Shown here: piece by piece, positions 1,142 through 12,126 of the stretch
Position numbering within the stretch: position 1 is the stretch's first letter
How the letters are laid out: the number at the start of each line of letters is the position of its first letter
DNA from: Oceanispirochaeta crateris
GTDB lineage: Bacteria; Spirochaetota; Spirochaetia; DSM-2461
NCBI RefSeq assembly: GCF_008329965.1
Contig: NZ_CP036150.1
Span: 744,001-808,000, forward strand
DNA: 64,000 bases
Direction of reading: 5' to 3'
Translations under genes and position numbers: made by a program
The notes under the pieces: generated by a model
Database searches by the model: none
What the model was told of the DNA's origin: nothing
What the model saw: the letters and a program-made list of their open reading frames with translations, nothing else

Positions 1142-4100
1142 ATGAAAAACGAAAATAAAATTCCATTCTCTGCGAAGCTTAAGCAGAGTCAACAGATATA
1201 TCCCCTGGGTCTGGATGTGGGATCTACTACGGTGAAAGTAGTTCTCCTCAGCCCGGATCAGAAAACCGTCCTGTTTCAACAGTATGAACGACATAATGCC
1301 CGTCAGCGCGAAACGGCGCTCTCCATTCTTACAAAGGTTTCGAACCAGTTTCCCCATATCCAGGTCTGTCCCGTTCTTTGCGGTAGCGGTTCCAGAGAGC
1401 TGGCTGAGGAATTGGGAGCTTCCTACCTTCAGGAAGTCGTAGCCAACTCTCTGGCAGTGCGTGATCTGTATCCTCAAACCAGGGTGGCTGTAGAGCTGGG
1501 GGGACAGGATGCTAAAATCACATTCTTCTACATGGACGAACAAAGCGGTAAACTCACCGCTTCGGACATGAGGATGAACGGCACATGTGCCGGTGGAACA
1601 GGAGCTTTTCTGGATGAGACCGCTACCCTGTTAAAGCTGGATGTAGAGGAATTAAATGGGAGTGCCGAGAAGGGCACCACCCTCTATGATATCTCAGGAC
1701 GCTGCGGTGTTTTTGCCAAGACTGATATTCAGCCCCTATTGAACCAGGGAGTCTGCAAGGAAGATCTTGCTCTGTCCTGCTTTCACGCCGTAGCAAAACA
1801 GACCATCGGCGGGTTAGCACAGGGACTTGAGATTCATCCCCCTGTTATATTTGAAGGTGGGCCTCTCCATTTCAATCCTGAACTCATTCGTGTTTTTGCC
1901 ACGCGACTCAACCTCAAGGAAGAGGATGTTATTATCCCCGATAATCCAGAGGCCATGATTGCCCGGGGAGCCGCCATTTCAGCCCTATCAACCTTTGAGG
2001 ATGCTCCGGTTTTTGAGTTGGATTCACTCATATTGGATGAGGCCTTCACGCATGCAGATCATACAGAATTAAGCGCTGGTATTCAGCCTTATTTCAAGGA
2101 CCTTAAAGAACAGGCCGAGTTTCAGGAAAGGCACGCTCTTCCGTCTCTACCGGAACTCAGTTCTTATGAGGGGCGTAGCCTCGATGTTTATCTGGGGATT
2201 GATGCCGGTTCCACAACCTCTAAGTTTGTGCTCATCGATGAGTCTGATAGACTGATCTACCGGTTTTACAGTAAGAATGAGGGAGAGCCCATTCGAGTAC
2301 TGCAGAAAGGTTTATTGGATTTTAAAGACAAATGTGATCAACTTAATATTCAATTGAACATCCTTGGCGCGGGGACAACCGGGTACGGAGAGATGCTTTT
2401 TGCCAAGGCATTCAATGCAGACTACCATGTTGTAGAAACAGTGGCCCATGCCGAAGCTGCTTTGCTGTTTGAACCTGATGCTTCCTTCATTCTGGATATT
2501 GGTGGTCAGGATATGAAGGCTATCTTTTTAAATGACGGCATTGTCACCGGGATTACTCTCAACGAAGCCTGTAGTGCAGGTTGCGGCTCTTTTTTAGAGA
2601 ACTTTTCTGAAAACTTGAAAATTCCAGTGGAATTGATTGCCGAGAAAGCCTTTGCATCCAAATCCCCCTCCCATCTGGGATCCAGGTGTACTGTCTTTAT
2701 GAATTCATCCGTCATAACAGAGCAGAAAAATGGTAAGACACCCGATGATATCATAGCAGGACTCTGTTATTCCGTGATTGAGAATGTCTTTACTAAGGTC
2801 ATTCGACTGAGCAATATGAAGGCCCTGGGTTCCAAGATCATAGTCCAGGGGGGAACATTCAGAAATGACGCGGTTTTAAGAGCCCTTGAACTCTTCACCG
2901 AAGCTGAAGTGACAAGAGCACCCTGGCCTGGTGAGATGGGAGCCATAGGAATTGCTAGACTCACAAGAAAGCATTTGTCCGAAAGGGGAAACCCTGCCAG
3001 TGGATTTTTAGACTGGAATACTCTTGAGAATTTTACTTATACCCGGCAGAGCGGAATGGTCTGTCACTTCTGTACCAATAACTGCAGCCGAACCATCATC
3101 ACATTTGCTGGAGGCAACAGCTTTATAACCGGAAACCGCTGTGAGAAGGGTGAAGTTCTGGGAGACATGAAAGATCCTGATGTGAAAGAACGGATTAAAA
3201 AAATAAATTCAGAAACGAAAGACCGCCGGGATGTGTTCCGCTATAGAGAAGAGCTCTTATTTAGACCCTACGAGGGCCCCGTATTCTCACCGGCTAAGGA
3301 TATGACCATTGGAATACCCCGTATATTGGATTTCTGGGAGCATTATCCCTTCTGGAATGCTCTTTTTACATCCTTGGGCTTCAAAATAAAACTGTCCTCT
3401 TCCAGTACGGTGTCCCTTTATGAAAAGGGCCTGGCGTCCATTCCATCAGACACGGCCTGTTTTCCCTCCAAACTCTCCCATGGTCATATTCAGGATCTGA
3501 TCGCCGCTCAGGTCGACAGGATCTTTTTACCTTCCATGAGCCGGATGATCTCCGAAAACAAGGGAATCCATTCGGAACACTCCTGTGCCGTTCTCAAGGG
3601 CTATCCCATGGTCTTGAATATCAGTGATGAACCCCTTGAGAAGCATAACATCCCCATGGATATTCCAGTTTTTCACTGGACTGATGAAAAAGCCAGAGAA
3701 GACTCAATTATTGAATATGTGACCAGGACTTTTGCCCTGCCTGACAAACAAATCCGCCAGGCTATAGGGAAGGCTTTGGACTTTCAGGAAGCCTTCAGAC
3801 AGGACCTCTTCACTGCAGGAGAGAACCTGCTGAATTCATTGGCTGAGGGTGAGTACGCCATCGTCCTGGCCGGCCGCCCCTATCATTCAGACCCTCTGAT
3901 CAATCACGGTCTGTCAGACTATTTCACCCGGGATGGATTGGCTGTATTGCCCTTAGATGCCCTTCCGGGACTGCATGAAATGGACTTGAGTTCTGTGAGA
4001 GCAGAGCTCACTACCAATTATCATGTCAGAATGATGGCAGGGGCCCGTCTGGTAGCACAAAATCCCCAGCTTGAATATGTTCAGATCGTGAGTTTTGGCT

Positions 4101-5548
4101 GCGGTCATGATGCCATCCTCACCGATGAGATTACCAGGATACTAGGGCGTGAAGCGGATAAGAGTCCTCTGGTTCTGAAAATGGATGAGTCAGAAGTTTC
4201 CGGGCCGCTGAATATCAGGGTTAAATCTTTTATTGAGACTCTCCAACGGAAGAGAAATAAAGGTTTGAGTGCACCTAGGGAAACGGGAAAAGCCTATGAA
4301 GTAGTCTTTGAGAAGAAAGATAGAGAGAGGGTCATCCTCGTTCCCAATGTCTCCTGGGCCTTTACCCAGGTGGCAACGGCGTCCATCAGGCTTCAGGGAT
4401 ACAGGGTGGAAGCCATGCCTATTGCAGGAAAATTGGCTATTAGTCAGGGGAAAAAATATGTGCATAATGACATGTGTTTTCCTGCCCAGATTAATATTGG
4501 TGAGTTCCTAGCCGTGATGGAAGAGGGAAAATACCATCCCGATAATGTCGCTCTGGCCCTGGCCAAAGCACAATGTGACTGCCGTCTGGCACACTATGCC
4601 ATGATGGCTCGTCAAGCCCTGGATGATGCAGGATATCCCCAGGTTCCCATCGTCACGACCGATAAAGACACGAAGAATATGCATCCCGGTTTTACGATGA
4701 ATGCTTTTTTTGAACTTCGGATGCTCTGGGGCCTGATTATGACGGATATTCTGGAAGATCTCAGGCGTAAGATCAGACCCTATGAAGAAGTTCCGGGAAG
4801 TACCAATAAGCTGTTTGAAGAGTCTGTTATGAATATCTGCAATGGTTTCTCAAAAAGTATGAAAATGGCAAAAACCGCCTTCTTGAAAGCCCTTAAAGAC
4901 TTTGAAACCATTCCCTATGATAGAAGCAGGCGTAAACCACGAGTCTTTATGATTGGTGAATTTCTGCTGAACTTTCATCCCGGTTCCAACAACCATATTG
5001 AAGATTATCTTGAAAAAAACGGTATGGAAGTCATCATGCCAAACCTGTTCAATAACATGCACCGCGAATACCTGCTGGAACAGGACCAGAGACATCAGTA
5101 CCATGTTCGTTTCACTTTTCTACAGGGACTGATGACCGATATTTCTGAAAAATATATCCGTTCTGTTCTTAAATTTTGCGAGAAGGCTGTCTCCGGTCAT
5201 CCCCTTTGGGAACCCACAGTTCCGCTGCGGGTCATTGCCGATAGAGCCCAGCACATTGTGGATAGGACTTTTACCTCCGGCGAAGGATGGATGATTCCCG
5301 GAGAAATTCTTCACCATGCAGATCATGGAGTCCATTCGTTTTTGATTCTTCAGCCTTTCGGTTGTTTGCCCAATCATGTTACCGGACGAGGGCTTGTTAA
5401 GAAAATTAAGAAGGAACATCCCCATATTCAGGTACTGGCTCTGGATTATGAACCGGATACCAGTTTTGGAAATGTGGAAAACCGTCTTCAAATGCTGATA
5501 ATCAACGCCAGGGAAAGAGATAAGGGGCCCTATGAAATCAGCTCTTAA
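1142..5548 (+). CDS. Giant acyl-CoA dehydratase activase-like protein (double BcrA/BadF/HgdC ATPase + DUF2229)
   Basis: 1468 residues. Two tandem activase ATPase domains of the BcrA/BadF/BzdN/HgdC family are visible: domain 1 at about 19-285 (LGLDVGSTTVKVVLL) and domain 2 at about 347-610 (LGIDAGSTTSKFVLI). Each keeps the two cysteines that in HgdC-type activases hold the bridging [4Fe-4S] cluster (NGTCAGGTG and GRCGVFAK; ACSAGCGSF and SRCTVFMN). A Cys motif FCTNNC near 640 leads into a DUF2229-like and dehydratase-related C-terminal half. In the family, such activases feed electrons with ATP hydrolysis to 2-hydroxyacyl-CoA dehydratases or benzoyl-CoA reductases. Single-chain versions are widespread in anaerobes with unknown substrate. 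No separate dehydratase subunits lie nearby. The end overlaps the MATE gene by 17 bases, so the two are probably co-transcribed. There is no strong ribosome-binding site at ATG 1142. Confidence 0.85.
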   Translation: MKNENKIPFSAKLKQSQQIYPLGLDVGSTTVKVVLLSPDQKTVLFQQYERHNARQRETALSILTKVSNQFPHIQVCPVLCGSGSRELAEELGASYLQEVVANSLAVRDLYPQTRVAVELGGQDAKITFFYMDEQSGKLTASDMRMNGTCAGGTGAFLDETATLLKLDVEELNGSAEKGTTLYDISGRCGVFAKTDIQPLLNQGVCKEDLALSCFHAVAKQTIGGLAQGLEIHPPVIFEGGPLHFNPELIRVFATRLNLKEEDVIIPDNPEAMIARGAAISALSTFEDAPVFELDSLILDEAFTHADHTELSAGIQPYFKDLKEQAEFQERHALPSLPELSSYEGRSLDVYLGIDAGSTTSKFVLIDESDRLIYRFYSKNEGEPIRVLQKGLLDFKDKCDQLNIQLNILGAGTTGYGEMLFAKAFNADYHVVETVAHAEAALLFEPDASFILDIGGQDMKAIFLNDGIVTGITLNEACSAGCGSFLENFSENLKIPVELIAEKAFASKSPSHLGSRCTVFMNSSVITEQKNGKTPDDIIAGLCYSVIENVFTKVIRLSNMKALGSKIIVQGGTFRNDAVLRALELFTEAEVTRAPWPGEMGAIGIARLTRKHLSERGNPASGFLDWNTLENFTYTRQSGMVCHFCTNNCSRTIITFAGGNSFITGNRCEKGEVLGDMKDPDVKERIKKINSETKDRRDVFRYREELLFRPYEGPVFSPAKDMTIGIPRILDFWEHYPFWNALFTSLGFKIKLSSSSTVSLYEKGLASIPSDTACFPSKLSHGHIQDLIAAQVDRIFLPSMSRMISENKGIHSEHSCAVLKGYPMVLNISDEPLEKHNIPMDIPVFHWTDEKAREDSIIEYVTRTFALPDKQIRQAIGKALDFQEAFRQDLFTAGENLLNSLAEGEYAIVLAGRPYHSDPLINHGLSDYFTRDGLAVLPLDALPGLHEMDLSSVRAELTTNYHVRMMAGARLVAQNPQLEYVQIVSFGCGHDAILTDEITRILGREADKSPLVLKMDESEVSGPLNIRVKSFIETLQRKRNKGLSAPRETGKAYEVVFEKKDRERVILVPNVSWAFTQVATASIRLQGYRVEAMPIAGKLAISQGKKYVHNDMCFPAQINIGEFLAVMEEGKYHPDNVALALAKAQCDCRLAHYAMMARQALDDAGYPQVPIVTTDKDTKNMHPGFTMNAFFELRMLWGLIMTDILEDLRRKIRPYEEVPGSTNKLFEESVMNICNGFSKSMKMAKTAFLKALKDFETIPYDRSRRKPRVFMIGEFLLNFHPGSNNHIEDYLEKNGMEVIMPNLFNNMHREYLLEQDQRHQYHVRFTFLQGLMTDISEKYIRSVLKFCEKAVSGHPLWEPTVPLRVIADRAQHIVDRTFTSGEGWMIPGEILHHADHGVHSFLILQPFGCLPNHVTGRGLVKKIKKEHPHIQVLALDYEPDTSFGNVENRLQMLIINARERDKGPYEISS

Positions 5549-9277: not shown

Positions 9278-9351
9278 TACAAAAAGATCATAATTTATCC
9301 CAATGAAGCAGGCTTTTGCAGTGGTATGATGTTGTCAATCAAGAGGATAGA

Positions 9352-12126
9352 ATGAGAACATATTGTATTGCCTGCGCTGTCTTTCGAAAGGATCTTGAAC
9401 AGATAATTCCCACTCTCCCGGATAAGCCATTTGTGCTTTATCTGGAGGGAGGGCTTCATACAGAACCCGATCTTCTCAGAAAAGAATTGCAGATAGCCAT
9501 AGATAATGTACCCGATGATTATGACAGAATCGTCCTCATGTACGGAGTCTGTGGTAAAGGGATTGTCGGTTTAAAGTCTTCTCGTCATACAATGGTCATA
9601 CCCCGGGTTCATGACTGTATCAGTCTCTTCCTCGGAGGAACGAAAGAGTACCGTAAACAGTTTTCACACAAACCGGGAACCTACTATATTTCTCCGGGCT
9701 GGTATGAAGAACAGGTTCAGCCCCGGGGTAAAGCCAAGAGAAATCCCGCTCAGATTCCCGGTGAATATGCAGATACTCTGGACAAAAATGTCTTAAAGGA
9801 ACGATTCGGAGAGGATAATTCTGAGGCTGTCTCTCATTTTTTTGACGCTTGGAAAAAAAACTATACCCGGGCTGTCTTCATAGACACAGGTTGTGGAGAT
9901 AAACAAAAGTATGCCGATTATGCCCGTTCCATGGCAAAGGAGAACGGCTGGGAGTATACCAAGCTGAAGGGGTCTCATAATCTGATCCTTCAATGCTTTT
10001 CTCCTCATCCTAACAAGGGTGAAGATGAAGTACTGGTTGTTCCTCCCGCTAGGGAAATTATCTTTGATTCCCCATCAGGATTAATACACTTTGCTTCACC
10101 CGAAGCGGATCGTCTTAAGGGCAGTCATAGAATCATTGTTAAGAATCATATAGAGGAATCAGCCTCAAAAAATCAAACTCCAGAATCAAAATCGAAGTTA
10201 GGCCTGGGGATCGATGCGGGTGGCACCTTTACAGATGCAGTCCTTTATGACTTCGATTCACAGAAAATCCTCGGCCGTTCAAAGGCTCTGACCACAAAAT
10301 GGAAATATTCAGAAGGTATCATGAACGCTGTCTGCCAGCTACCCGGAGAATATTTAAAAAAAGTGGATCTCGTTTCCTTATCTACGACCCTGGTTACAAA
10401 TGCCATTGTGGAGTCAAATACCTATCCTGTAGGGCTTTTTCTAATGCCTCTAGGGAATACTCTCCCCGATACATTGAGCCATACACCCACGGCGGTGATT
10501 AAGGGACGCATGACCATCGAAGGGACGATCACAGAAAATATTGATCCTGAAGAAATAGAAAGACTCTCTCACAAAATGATTGATGATCAGGGGGTCCAGG
10601 CCTTTGCTGTCTCGGGATATGGCGGGTCTATCAATCCCCATCTGGAGCTGCAGGTCAAATCCCTTTTGAGAAAGTGTACGGGGCTGGATGTCTGCTGCGG
10701 ACATGAACTCTCGGGAACTCTGAATTTCTATGTCAGGGCTCATACGGCCACACTAAATGCCGGTGTGATTCCCATCATGGTTGAATTTTTAGATGAGATG
10801 AAGACCGCCTTAGCCAGGGCCGGCGTACAGGCTCCCTGCCTTGTGGTAAAAGGGGATGGATCGGTGATGACCGGCTCTTATGCCAGTGAGTTTCCTGTTC
10901 AGACGGCTTTATCGGGCCCAGCCGCCAGTATGGCGGGAGCCAAATTTCTAACAGGTCTTAAAGATGCACTGGTTGTTGATGTGGGGGGTACGACATCGGA
11001 TATCGGCTTTCTCGAACAGGGAGAGGTCGCGGTCTGTGAGGAGGGGGCATCCATAGCTTCTAGAAGAACTCATATCAAAGCCGTGAATATGCTTACGACA
11101 GGTCTGGGCGGTGACAGTGCTCTTGTTTTTGAAAGACAGCAGTGGACCATTGGACCGGGAAGAATCACTCCCTTCTGCTGGCTGAGCGCCCAATTTGATT
11201 TGAGAGAGAGTCTTGACCGGGCTGAAAAGATTTCGGGGAGTGATGAGTCTTCCCTTCCTCTTCAATGGCTTTATAAAACAGAGAAGAAACCCGATTTCCC
11301 TCTGACCCGGCAGGAGCTATCCTTGATGGATCTTCTTGAGAAGGGACCGGCTCTGATTTCGGAAATCAGCAGAGAACTCTCACAGGGTGTATGGAAATTA
11401 TTGAAAACAGAGAGGCTGGAAAAGGCATATTGTATTCAAAGAGCCGGGCTGACACCTACTGACCTGTACCATCTTATGGGTTTGCTTAAACTCTGGCCTG
11501 CTGAGGAGATCGGGCGCTACTTTGGTCTGATTCTCAGATTGCAAAATGAGTCATCAGGGGCGGTGATTAAGATGCTGTTGCATCAAATCAGTCGTCAACT
11601 GGGATTTGCTATCTTAGAAAAAATTTTCCCAGAAGCATCGGTTTCTCCGGAAATTTACAATTTGATCCTGGAAAGAGGGAATGAGAGTCTGTCTCTCATT
11701 CCCGATCTGAAAACATCTGTTATTGGGCTAGGAGCACCTGCAGCTCTGATGCTGAATGAGGCTGTTGTTCTCCTGGGTGGCGAGCTTATCGTGCCTGAAA
11801 ATGGAGATGTTGCCAATGCACTGGGAGCGATCACAAGCGAAGTCAAGGTTAGCTCTTCGGCATCCATTTTACCCACATCGGAGGGAAACTTCCGTATTAT
11901 TGGATTAGAAAGTTTTGCTGACTTTGAGTCTCTGGAAGAAGCCGAAGAGCTTTGTCTAGAAAGTTTGGCTGATAAGACCAGAAGGATTGGACGGAAAGCA
12001 GGCACAAGCCAAAAGAGGGTTACGATTCACATTGATGATAAAACTGCATTGTCTTCCTCTGGAGACATTCTGTTCCTGGAAAGATCCTTTGTCTCATCAC
12101 TGAAGGGTGCCCCTGATTTAATTTGA
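9352..12126 (+). CDS. DUF1638 domain fused to hydantoinase/oxoprolinase (HyuA-like) ATPase
   Basis: 924 residues from ATG 9352, which has GAGG seven bases upstream; an in-frame TTG at 9316 is less likely. Residues about 1-250 match DUF1638 as I know it (MYGVCGKG, PRVHDCISLFLG, YYISPGWYEE, DTGCGD), with Cys/His pairs that could bind metal. From about 283 an ASKHA-type fold begins: LGIDAGGTFTDAVLY, then STTLVTNAIVE, VDVGGTTSDIGFLEQG and GLGGDSALVF, the signature of the hydantoinase A/oxoprolinase family. That family drives ATP-dependent ring opening or acts as an activator. No HyuB partner gene is present. DUF1638 is often seen near corrinoid methyltransferase genes, so an ATP-dependent activation role is conceivable but unproven. 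Confidence 0.85.
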   Translation: MRTYCIACAVFRKDLEQIIPTLPDKPFVLYLEGGLHTEPDLLRKELQIAIDNVPDDYDRIVLMYGVCGKGIVGLKSSRHTMVIPRVHDCISLFLGGTKEYRKQFSHKPGTYYISPGWYEEQVQPRGKAKRNPAQIPGEYADTLDKNVLKERFGEDNSEAVSHFFDAWKKNYTRAVFIDTGCGDKQKYADYARSMAKENGWEYTKLKGSHNLILQCFSPHPNKGEDEVLVVPPAREIIFDSPSGLIHFASPEADRLKGSHRIIVKNHIEESASKNQTPESKSKLGLGIDAGGTFTDAVLYDFDSQKILGRSKALTTKWKYSEGIMNAVCQLPGEYLKKVDLVSLSTTLVTNAIVESNTYPVGLFLMPLGNTLPDTLSHTPTAVIKGRMTIEGTITENIDPEEIERLSHKMIDDQGVQAFAVSGYGGSINPHLELQVKSLLRKCTGLDVCCGHELSGTLNFYVRAHTATLNAGVIPIMVEFLDEMKTALARAGVQAPCLVVKGDGSVMTGSYASEFPVQTALSGPAASMAGAKFLTGLKDALVVDVGGTTSDIGFLEQGEVAVCEEGASIASRRTHIKAVNMLTTGLGGDSALVFERQQWTIGPGRITPFCWLSAQFDLRESLDRAEKISGSDESSLPLQWLYKTEKKPDFPLTRQELSLMDLLEKGPALISEISRELSQGVWKLLKTERLEKAYCIQRAGLTPTDLYHLMGLLKLWPAEEIGRYFGLILRLQNESSGAVIKMLLHQISRQLGFAILEKIFPEASVSPEIYNLILERGNESLSLIPDLKTSVIGLGAPAALMLNEAVVLLGGELIVPENGDVANALGAITSEVKVSSSASILPTSEGNFRIIGLESFADFESLEEAEELCLESLADKTRRIGRKAGTSQKRVTIHIDDKTALSSSGDILFLERSFVSSLKGAPDLI

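Follow-up and report, generated by a model that had tools for sequence, protein, structure and literature searches.

A DUF1638-HyuA-type ATPase fusion in Oceanispirochaeta crateris, a candidate maintenance factor for corrinoid methyl-transfer proteins

What reaction would bring a DUF1638 module and a HyuA-type ATPase together in one polypeptide, in a genome with no HyuB match? The question is raised by a 64,000-nucleotide stretch of the Oceanispirochaeta crateris contig NZ_CP036150.1 (positions 744,001 to 808,000, hereafter the window), whose forward strand encodes, at window positions 9352-12126, a 924-aa protein made of a complete DUF1638 followed by a HyuA-type ATPase of the ASKHA superfamily. 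A first-pass annotation, made from the letters of the window, had suggested that this protein may be either an activator or a new ring-opening enzyme. On balance, we consider it probable that the fusion is an ATP-driven maintenance (reactivation) factor for corrinoid methyl-transfer proteins. We are led to this proposal by the fusion itself, by its conservation among relatives, by the invariance of the ATPase motifs and by the association of DUF1638 with corrinoid proteins, methyltransferases and RACo. RACo and RamA (DUF4445, PF14574) are the reductive activators of corrinoid proteins.

Domain architecture and invariant residues

The reading frame is intact from the ATG at 9352 to the stop codon at 12124-12126; a TTG located 36 bases 5' of the ATG is a possible alternative start, and the aligned relatives begin at or near the ATG. 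Pfam profiles matched (i) DUF1638 (PF07796) at residues 31-214 (E=4.9e-41, 140.7 bits versus a curated cut-off of 27), (ii) Hydant_A_N (PF05378) at residues 285-441 (E=4.1e-26) and (iii) Hydantoinase_A (PF01968) at residues 462-603 (E=6.3e-27), the latter two also above their cut-offs. The N-terminal region is therefore DUF1638, and the junction of this module with a HyuA-like ASKHA ATPase, as recognised in the first-pass annotation, is confirmed within a single intact open reading frame (ORF). Neither RACo_C_ter (PF14574) nor a ferredoxin (Fer) domain matched the protein at E<=0.1 in Pfam, and the GlmL and MutL profiles gave weak matches, below cut-off. Comparison with a 74%-identical relative gave a non-synonymous divergence (dN) of 0.18 for a near-saturated synonymous divergence (dS) of ~2.2; the fusion frame is therefore under purifying selection.

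Five residues of the DUF1638 module, Cys8, His36, Cys67, Asp88 and Cys89, are invariant in an alignment of 25 sequences (18 from fusions and 7 from standalone proteins, without the Phaeobacter inhibens protein discussed below), and the same five are invariant within 70 fusions, three rows of which are gapped at Cys8. The module had been described as Cys/His-rich, a term that is only partly apt: the invariant set comprises four Cys/His residues plus one Asp. In the predicted secondary structure the four Cys/His sit after strands 1 to 4 of an alternating beta/alpha fold and, as all four occupy this position in the model, they could converge on a single site. No credible weak relative of DUF1638 was found in Pfam or in the PDB, and no structural match was obtained for this half with full-length models as queries, for which the VIA-align ranges all fell in the ATPase half.

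For the ATPase half, an AlphaFold2 model built from 70 sequences (mean predicted local distance difference test score, pLDDT, of 86.8) was used in preference to a 12-sequence model (pLDDT 69.1). Residues 282-922 match the alpha subunit of acetophenone carboxylase (5l9w_b; Z 29.6, root mean square deviation 3.0, 494 residues aligned), and further matches are caprolactamase, acetone carboxylase and N-methylhydantoinase, followed by activators of acyl-CoA dehydratases (Z about 15). Dehydratase reactivases (1nbw, Z 12.2; 2d0o, Z 12.9) are also among the fold matches, a similarity that is ASKHA-wide, and Foldseek also retrieved the RACo structures 3zyy and 4c1n, at low TM-scores. In the nucleotide loops, residues D288, G291, T292, D295, D543, G545-T548, D550 and G794 do not vary among the 70 sequences. 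In a tree of the ATPase domain, for which the program warns of long branches, the fusions group with a HyuA encoded in an MttB operon (support 98/95), apart from the HyuB-linked HyuA proteins and from the short HyuA proteins paired with S-Me-THD. The three HyuB-linked rows of the alignment contain a PGPxxYxxGG segment, which is missing in the four fusion rows and likewise in the S-Me-THD-type rows. A pairing of the fusion with S-Me-THD was considered and rejected, as the short (~520 aa) HyuA proteins that have this partner form a separate clade. Such short HyuA-like ASKHA proteins stand beside 361-365-aa proteins in loci L203, L205, L207 and L208, and these neighbours are S-Me-THD-like in both loci scanned, L205 and L207.

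The features of the gene are collected in Table 1. The possible winged-helix-like insert listed there resembled an ArsR protein only weakly in a profile search (E=0.72), and Pfam had no match for 11290-11480.

Table 1. Positions, in the window, of the fusion gene and of its predicted or conserved elements
Feature	Position	Strand	Basis or remark
AGAGGA, probable ribosome-binding site	9342-9347	+	4 nt ahead of the ATG; predicted from the sequence
DUF1638-HyuA fusion gene, 924 aa	9352-12126	+	ORF and Pfam
DUF1638 module, residues 1-245	9352-10086	+	Pfam and predicted model (alternating beta/alpha)
Cys8	9373-9375	+	invariant in fused and standalone DUF1638, 25/25
His36	9457-9459	+	invariant, 25/25
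Cys67, YGxC motif	9550-9552	+	invariant, 25/25
Asp88-Cys89, HDC motif	9613-9618	+	invariant, 25/25
Variable linker	10087-10194	+	alignment; low model confidence
Hydant_A_N half of the ASKHA ATPase	10204-10674	+	Pfam
Phosphate-1 loop GIDAGGTFTD	10207-10236	+	within the Hydant_A_N half
Hydantoinase_A half	10735-11160	+	Pfam
Phosphate-2 loop DVGGTTSD	10978-11001	+	within the Hydantoinase_A half
C-terminal half of the HyuA-type fold, without PGPxxYxxGG segment	11161-12123	+	model, structure comparison and alignment
Possible winged-helix-like insert, conserved G-L-T-x-T-D at its end	11296-11469	+	putative assignment
Adenosine-side GLGAP	11725-11739	+	within the C-terminal half of the HyuA-type fold

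Distribution and gene company

Two collections were used: 61 genomes (the host's own and those of the same genus, family and class, Spirochaetia) and the best 80 of 286 relatives obtained by a scan of GTDB contigs. Both domains lie in one ORF in 12 of the 61 same-class genomes; HyuA-only ORFs were found in G005, G023 and G035, and contig-edge fragments in G019 and G024. The architecture, which the first-pass annotation had suggested seeking across anaerobes, is kept as one ORF in 75 of the best 80 loci, the others being HyuA only (2) or unresolved by the ORF picker (3). Judged by their record titles, these loci span spirochaetes, deltaproteobacteria (Desulfobacterota), planctomycetes, Omnitrophota, Kiritimatiellae, Lentisphaerae, Sumerlaeota and others. 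No viral relative was confirmed, and a role in a defence system was discarded, PADLOC giving no match. The fusion was undescribed in the literature searched, which consisted of the available portions of papers outside preprints and most subscription journals.

HyuB (PF02538) was absent from the ORFs of at least 90 aa in the 80 loci, where the positive controls matched, and Hydantoinase_B had no match at E<=0.001 in the host genome. Four of the 61 same-class genomes do contain HyuB, of which a single one, G060, also carries the fusion, its HyuB genes lying on other contigs. The description of a HyuA-like ATPase without HyuB thus holds for the host and for the 80 loci, and homologues are not universally accompanied by HyuB. 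RACo is present in 11 of the 12 fused versus 18 of the 49 other same-class genomes (p=0.0007, Fisher test; "fused" denotes both domains in one ORF, and related genomes are treated as independent). Thirty fusion genomes were also chosen by hand from the 80 loci, a non-random sample richer in MttB neighbours than the whole set: a fused-length frame with DUF1638 is present in 30/30, RACo in 29 and MttB in 28. With RACo in nearly every carrier of both samples, the fusion was rejected as a general substitute for RACo; as a substitute for the activation domain of methionine synthase (MetH) it was rejected as a rule, since G021, G041 and G048 carry the fusion as well as a full match to that domain. 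Many of the MttB frames hold one in-frame TAG (e.g., in G061, G070 and G080), which suggests that pyrrolysine is used in several fusion-carrying genomes.

Unfused DUF1638 genes keep similar company. Ten of the 16 found in the 61 genomes have a B12-binding_2 or RACo match no more than 2.5 kb away (the B12 match of G017 being below the Pfam cut-off). In L210 and L211 the order is RACo, a further gene, a corrinoid protein and DUF1638, the further gene encoding an MtmB-type methyltransferase in L210; in L212 and L213 DUF1638 is directly 5' of RACo and a URO-D methyltransferase adjoins on the opposite strand. On the haloarchaeal plasmid L221 (NZ_CP100467.1, 3941-8647), genes annotated as a corrinoid protein, an ASKHA protein, DUF1638 and an MtrH-like methyltransferase follow each other, and this row stands downstream of flavin adenine dinucleotide (FAD) oxidoreductases. 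Genetic data come from P. inhibens, where B12-dependent methionine synthesis requires both a standalone DUF1638 protein and a RamA-like ASKHA protein: the two genes have correlated fitness and methionine rescues both mutants, and the authors of that study (Price et al. 2018, PMC5764234) say themselves that they can offer no specific proposal for the function of DUF1638. A DUF1638 protein has also been described as more abundant on N-osmolytes and predicted to help recharge cobalamin (PMC12478193).

As for the fusion itself, the clearest surroundings are those of G009, in which a corrinoid protein, a URO-D-thioredoxin methyltransferase, a CobW protein and the fusion follow each other on the same strand, with little space between the last three, before the contig ends inside the fusion gene. 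The URO-D-thioredoxin protein is 55-57% identical to those that adjoin the separate DUF1638 and RACo genes of L212 and L213, so that one type of methyltransferase occurs with either arrangement, fusion or DUF1638 plus RACo. Over the 80 loci, one or more of five families occur in the flanks of 30: MttB (16), URO-D (9), pterin methyltransferase (6), corrinoid protein (3) or RACo (3). These counts were made with profiles built in part from members of the same loci, those for RACo and the corrinoid protein from few sequences, and gene clusters were named by Pfam scans of one or few members. Together with the ten unfused genes, they agree with the proximity of DUF1638 to corrinoid methyl-transfer genes put forward in the first-pass annotation. 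MTTB is the commonest family among 133 co-directional neighbours (13), followed by DAO (12), and MttB is near 12 of the 30 hand-picked loci versus 0.92 expected from its genome-wide density. A 401-aa gene cluster of the FAD DAO family is represented in the flanks of 11 loci, mostly directly upstream.

HyuA-type genes that lack the DUF1638 module also occur in this company. In G035 (L079), one gene row combines an unfused HyuA, three MttB genes, a corrinoid protein and a small Met_synt_B12-like protein whose Met_synt_B12 match is partial. Among five HyuA-only plasmid relatives with annotated surroundings, two, those of Azoarcus and M. amorphae, carry an MttB-family gene no more than 9 kb away; a sixth such plasmid had no annotation. 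HydA has been annotated in glycine-betaine MttB clusters of strain DCMF and others (PMC9768040), where, compared by description only, a HyuA-type gene lies among corrinoid methyltransferases as in G035, with neither DUF1638 nor a function given for it in the text consulted; predicted hydantoinases have been reported near Methanosarcina methanol genes (PMC11619418).

Proposed role and competing explanations

We propose that the DUF1638 module would recognise the inactivated corrinoid protein, or the inactive cobalt state, through a site formed by the five invariant residues, which may be a metal or Fe-S site or may provide a contact through an axial ligand or a thiol; the HyuA-type ASKHA domain, by binding or hydrolysing ATP, would then drive the change by which the cofactor returns to Co(I). 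The fusion would work beside RACo and not in its place: since nearly all the carriers checked also have RACo, a complementary step or another client is more likely than a replacement of RACo. The fusion resembles RACo and RamA in being an ASKHA ATPase found in company with corrinoid proteins, methyltransferases and DUF1638, but it differs from them in belonging to the HyuA-type branch, in having no DUF4445 or ferredoxin match and in carrying DUF1638 in cis. Standalone DUF1638 proteins (e.g., PGA1_c13340 of P. inhibens) have the same domain, with the same five invariant residues in the seven aligned, but act with a separate ASKHA protein. MecG and MecH of the mec (dichloromethane) cassette, likely corrinoid reactivation proteins in the account of PMC9768040, which has Price et al. 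2018 among its citations, are likewise two separate proteins, unlike the fusion; they are likened to it by their described role and not by DUF1638 content. What would be new, in corrinoid maintenance powered by an ASKHA protein, is the different engine and the fusion to DUF1638. A broader joint claim, namely that the fusion defines a second class of corrinoid reactivase in which a HyuA-type ASKHA engine replaces DUF4445, the DUF1638 head bears a Cys3-His metal site and faces the corrinoid or relays electrons, and the class is anaerobe-wide and hidden under the "hydantoinase/oxoprolinase" label, appears doubtful.

Several observations weigh against a maintenance role. As most carriers already have RACo, they might not need another reductive activator, and with no ferredoxin match the electron route is unaccounted for. 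ASKHA folds are functionally diverse, so that the structural matches do not separate the candidate roles. None of the five families was found in the flanks of 50 of the 80 loci, many of which are cut by contig ends, and other neighbours include FAD oxidoreductases, AFOR, MFS and more; three of the five annotated surroundings of the HyuA-only plasmid relatives show no MttB-family gene closer than 9 kb, and six of the 16 unfused DUF1638 genes (G003, G005, G035, G048, G052 and G060), some on short contigs, have neither a corrinoid-protein nor a RACo match within 2.5 kb. MttB, rare in the same-class set (8/61 genomes), is present in only 3 of its 12 fused genomes (G004, G030 and G060), and in O. 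crateris no corrinoid gene adjoins the window copy and no MttB match was found in the genome.

Some of these points would suit a chaperone that loads, exchanges or repairs the corrinoid in the manner of the diol/glycerol dehydratase reactivases, ejecting a damaged cofactor or inserting a fresh one without electron transfer. No electron-transfer domain was matched in the fusion protein, the near-constant presence of RACo in the hand-picked carriers leaves room for a non-redox step, a CobW-type GTPase is directly upstream of the fusion in G009, and dehydratase reactivases figure in the list of similar folds. However, the CobW adjacency was seen in one case only, and fold matches of this kind are common to ASKHA proteins in general. 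The correlated fitness and shared methionine rescue in P. inhibens (PMC5764234) also argue against such a chaperone, which we regard as unlikely.

Quite unlikely, in our opinion, is an enzyme acting on a small molecule, for example in methylamine, betaine or sarcosine breakdown, in which the HyuA domain would phosphorylate a carbonyl or amide and DUF1638 would be the hydrolytic or acceptor half instead of HyuB. The six best PDB sequence matches are indeed small-molecule enzymes (caprolactamase, deposited as "5-oxoprolinase", N-methylhydantoinase and acetophenone/acetone carboxylases), with which the fusion shares the fold of residues 282-922 and the nucleotide loops, and the DAO-family cluster would fit sarcosine chemistry. 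However, the fusion differs from the HyuA/HyuB systems by the lack of HyuB and of the PGPxxYxxGG segment, by its separate clade and by its corrinoid gene company, and standalone DUF1638 accompanies RACo and corrinoid proteins, where an amidase is not expected. The first-pass interpretation is therefore partly supported: the corrinoid association and the activator option are borne out, whereas the new ring-opening enzyme finds no support in the gene company or in the ATPase sequence. An unrelated role, such as a regulator or sensor of corrinoid or ATP status standing near methyltransferases by chance, would suit the possible winged-helix-like insert and the loci, the window's among them, that lack the corrinoid genes sought, but is very improbable given the excess of MttB over expectation, the G009 gene row and the auxotrophy of the P. 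inhibens DUF1638 mutant.

If the maintenance role is correct, the "hydantoinase/oxoprolinase" proteins of the fusion branch would in fact be corrinoid maintenance factors, a corrected annotation that bears on the prediction of methylamine, betaine and methoxy metabolism in anaerobes. A natural DUF1638-ATPase fusion, with invariant candidate ligands and paired gene rows, makes the function of DUF1638 directly testable.

The host genome and the window locus

The O. crateris genome, one contig of 4.01 Mb, has a single DUF1638 match and a single Hydantoinase_A match (each at E<=0.001). Two loci encode likely clients of a maintenance factor in this organism: the RACo-linked corrinoid protein of L083 or the split MetH of L084. 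In L083, near 2.12 Mb, RACo, a PocR-AraC regulator and a corrinoid protein stand in a row, with no methyltransferase in a Pfam scan of part of the neighbours. In L084 (7558-10928), near 3.84 Mb, methionine synthase is split: the homocysteine domain (S-methyl_trans) forms a protein of its own, and a second protein combines pterin and B12 domains with a partial activation domain that matches only positions 49-257 of 273.

In the window, the neighbours of the fusion gene encode MatE, an RNase D-like protein (DNA_pol_A_exo1 and HRDC), a DEAD helicase, DUF4260, a metallo-beta-lactamase fold and PfkB. About 4 kb upstream of the fusion, on the forward strand (1142-5548), lies a gene for a second ASKHA activator, a protein of 1468 aa that combines a BadF/BcrA-type ATPase domain, matched in two stretches, with DUF2229 ("CoA enzyme activase"); a homologue of this protein is similarly placed in L067.

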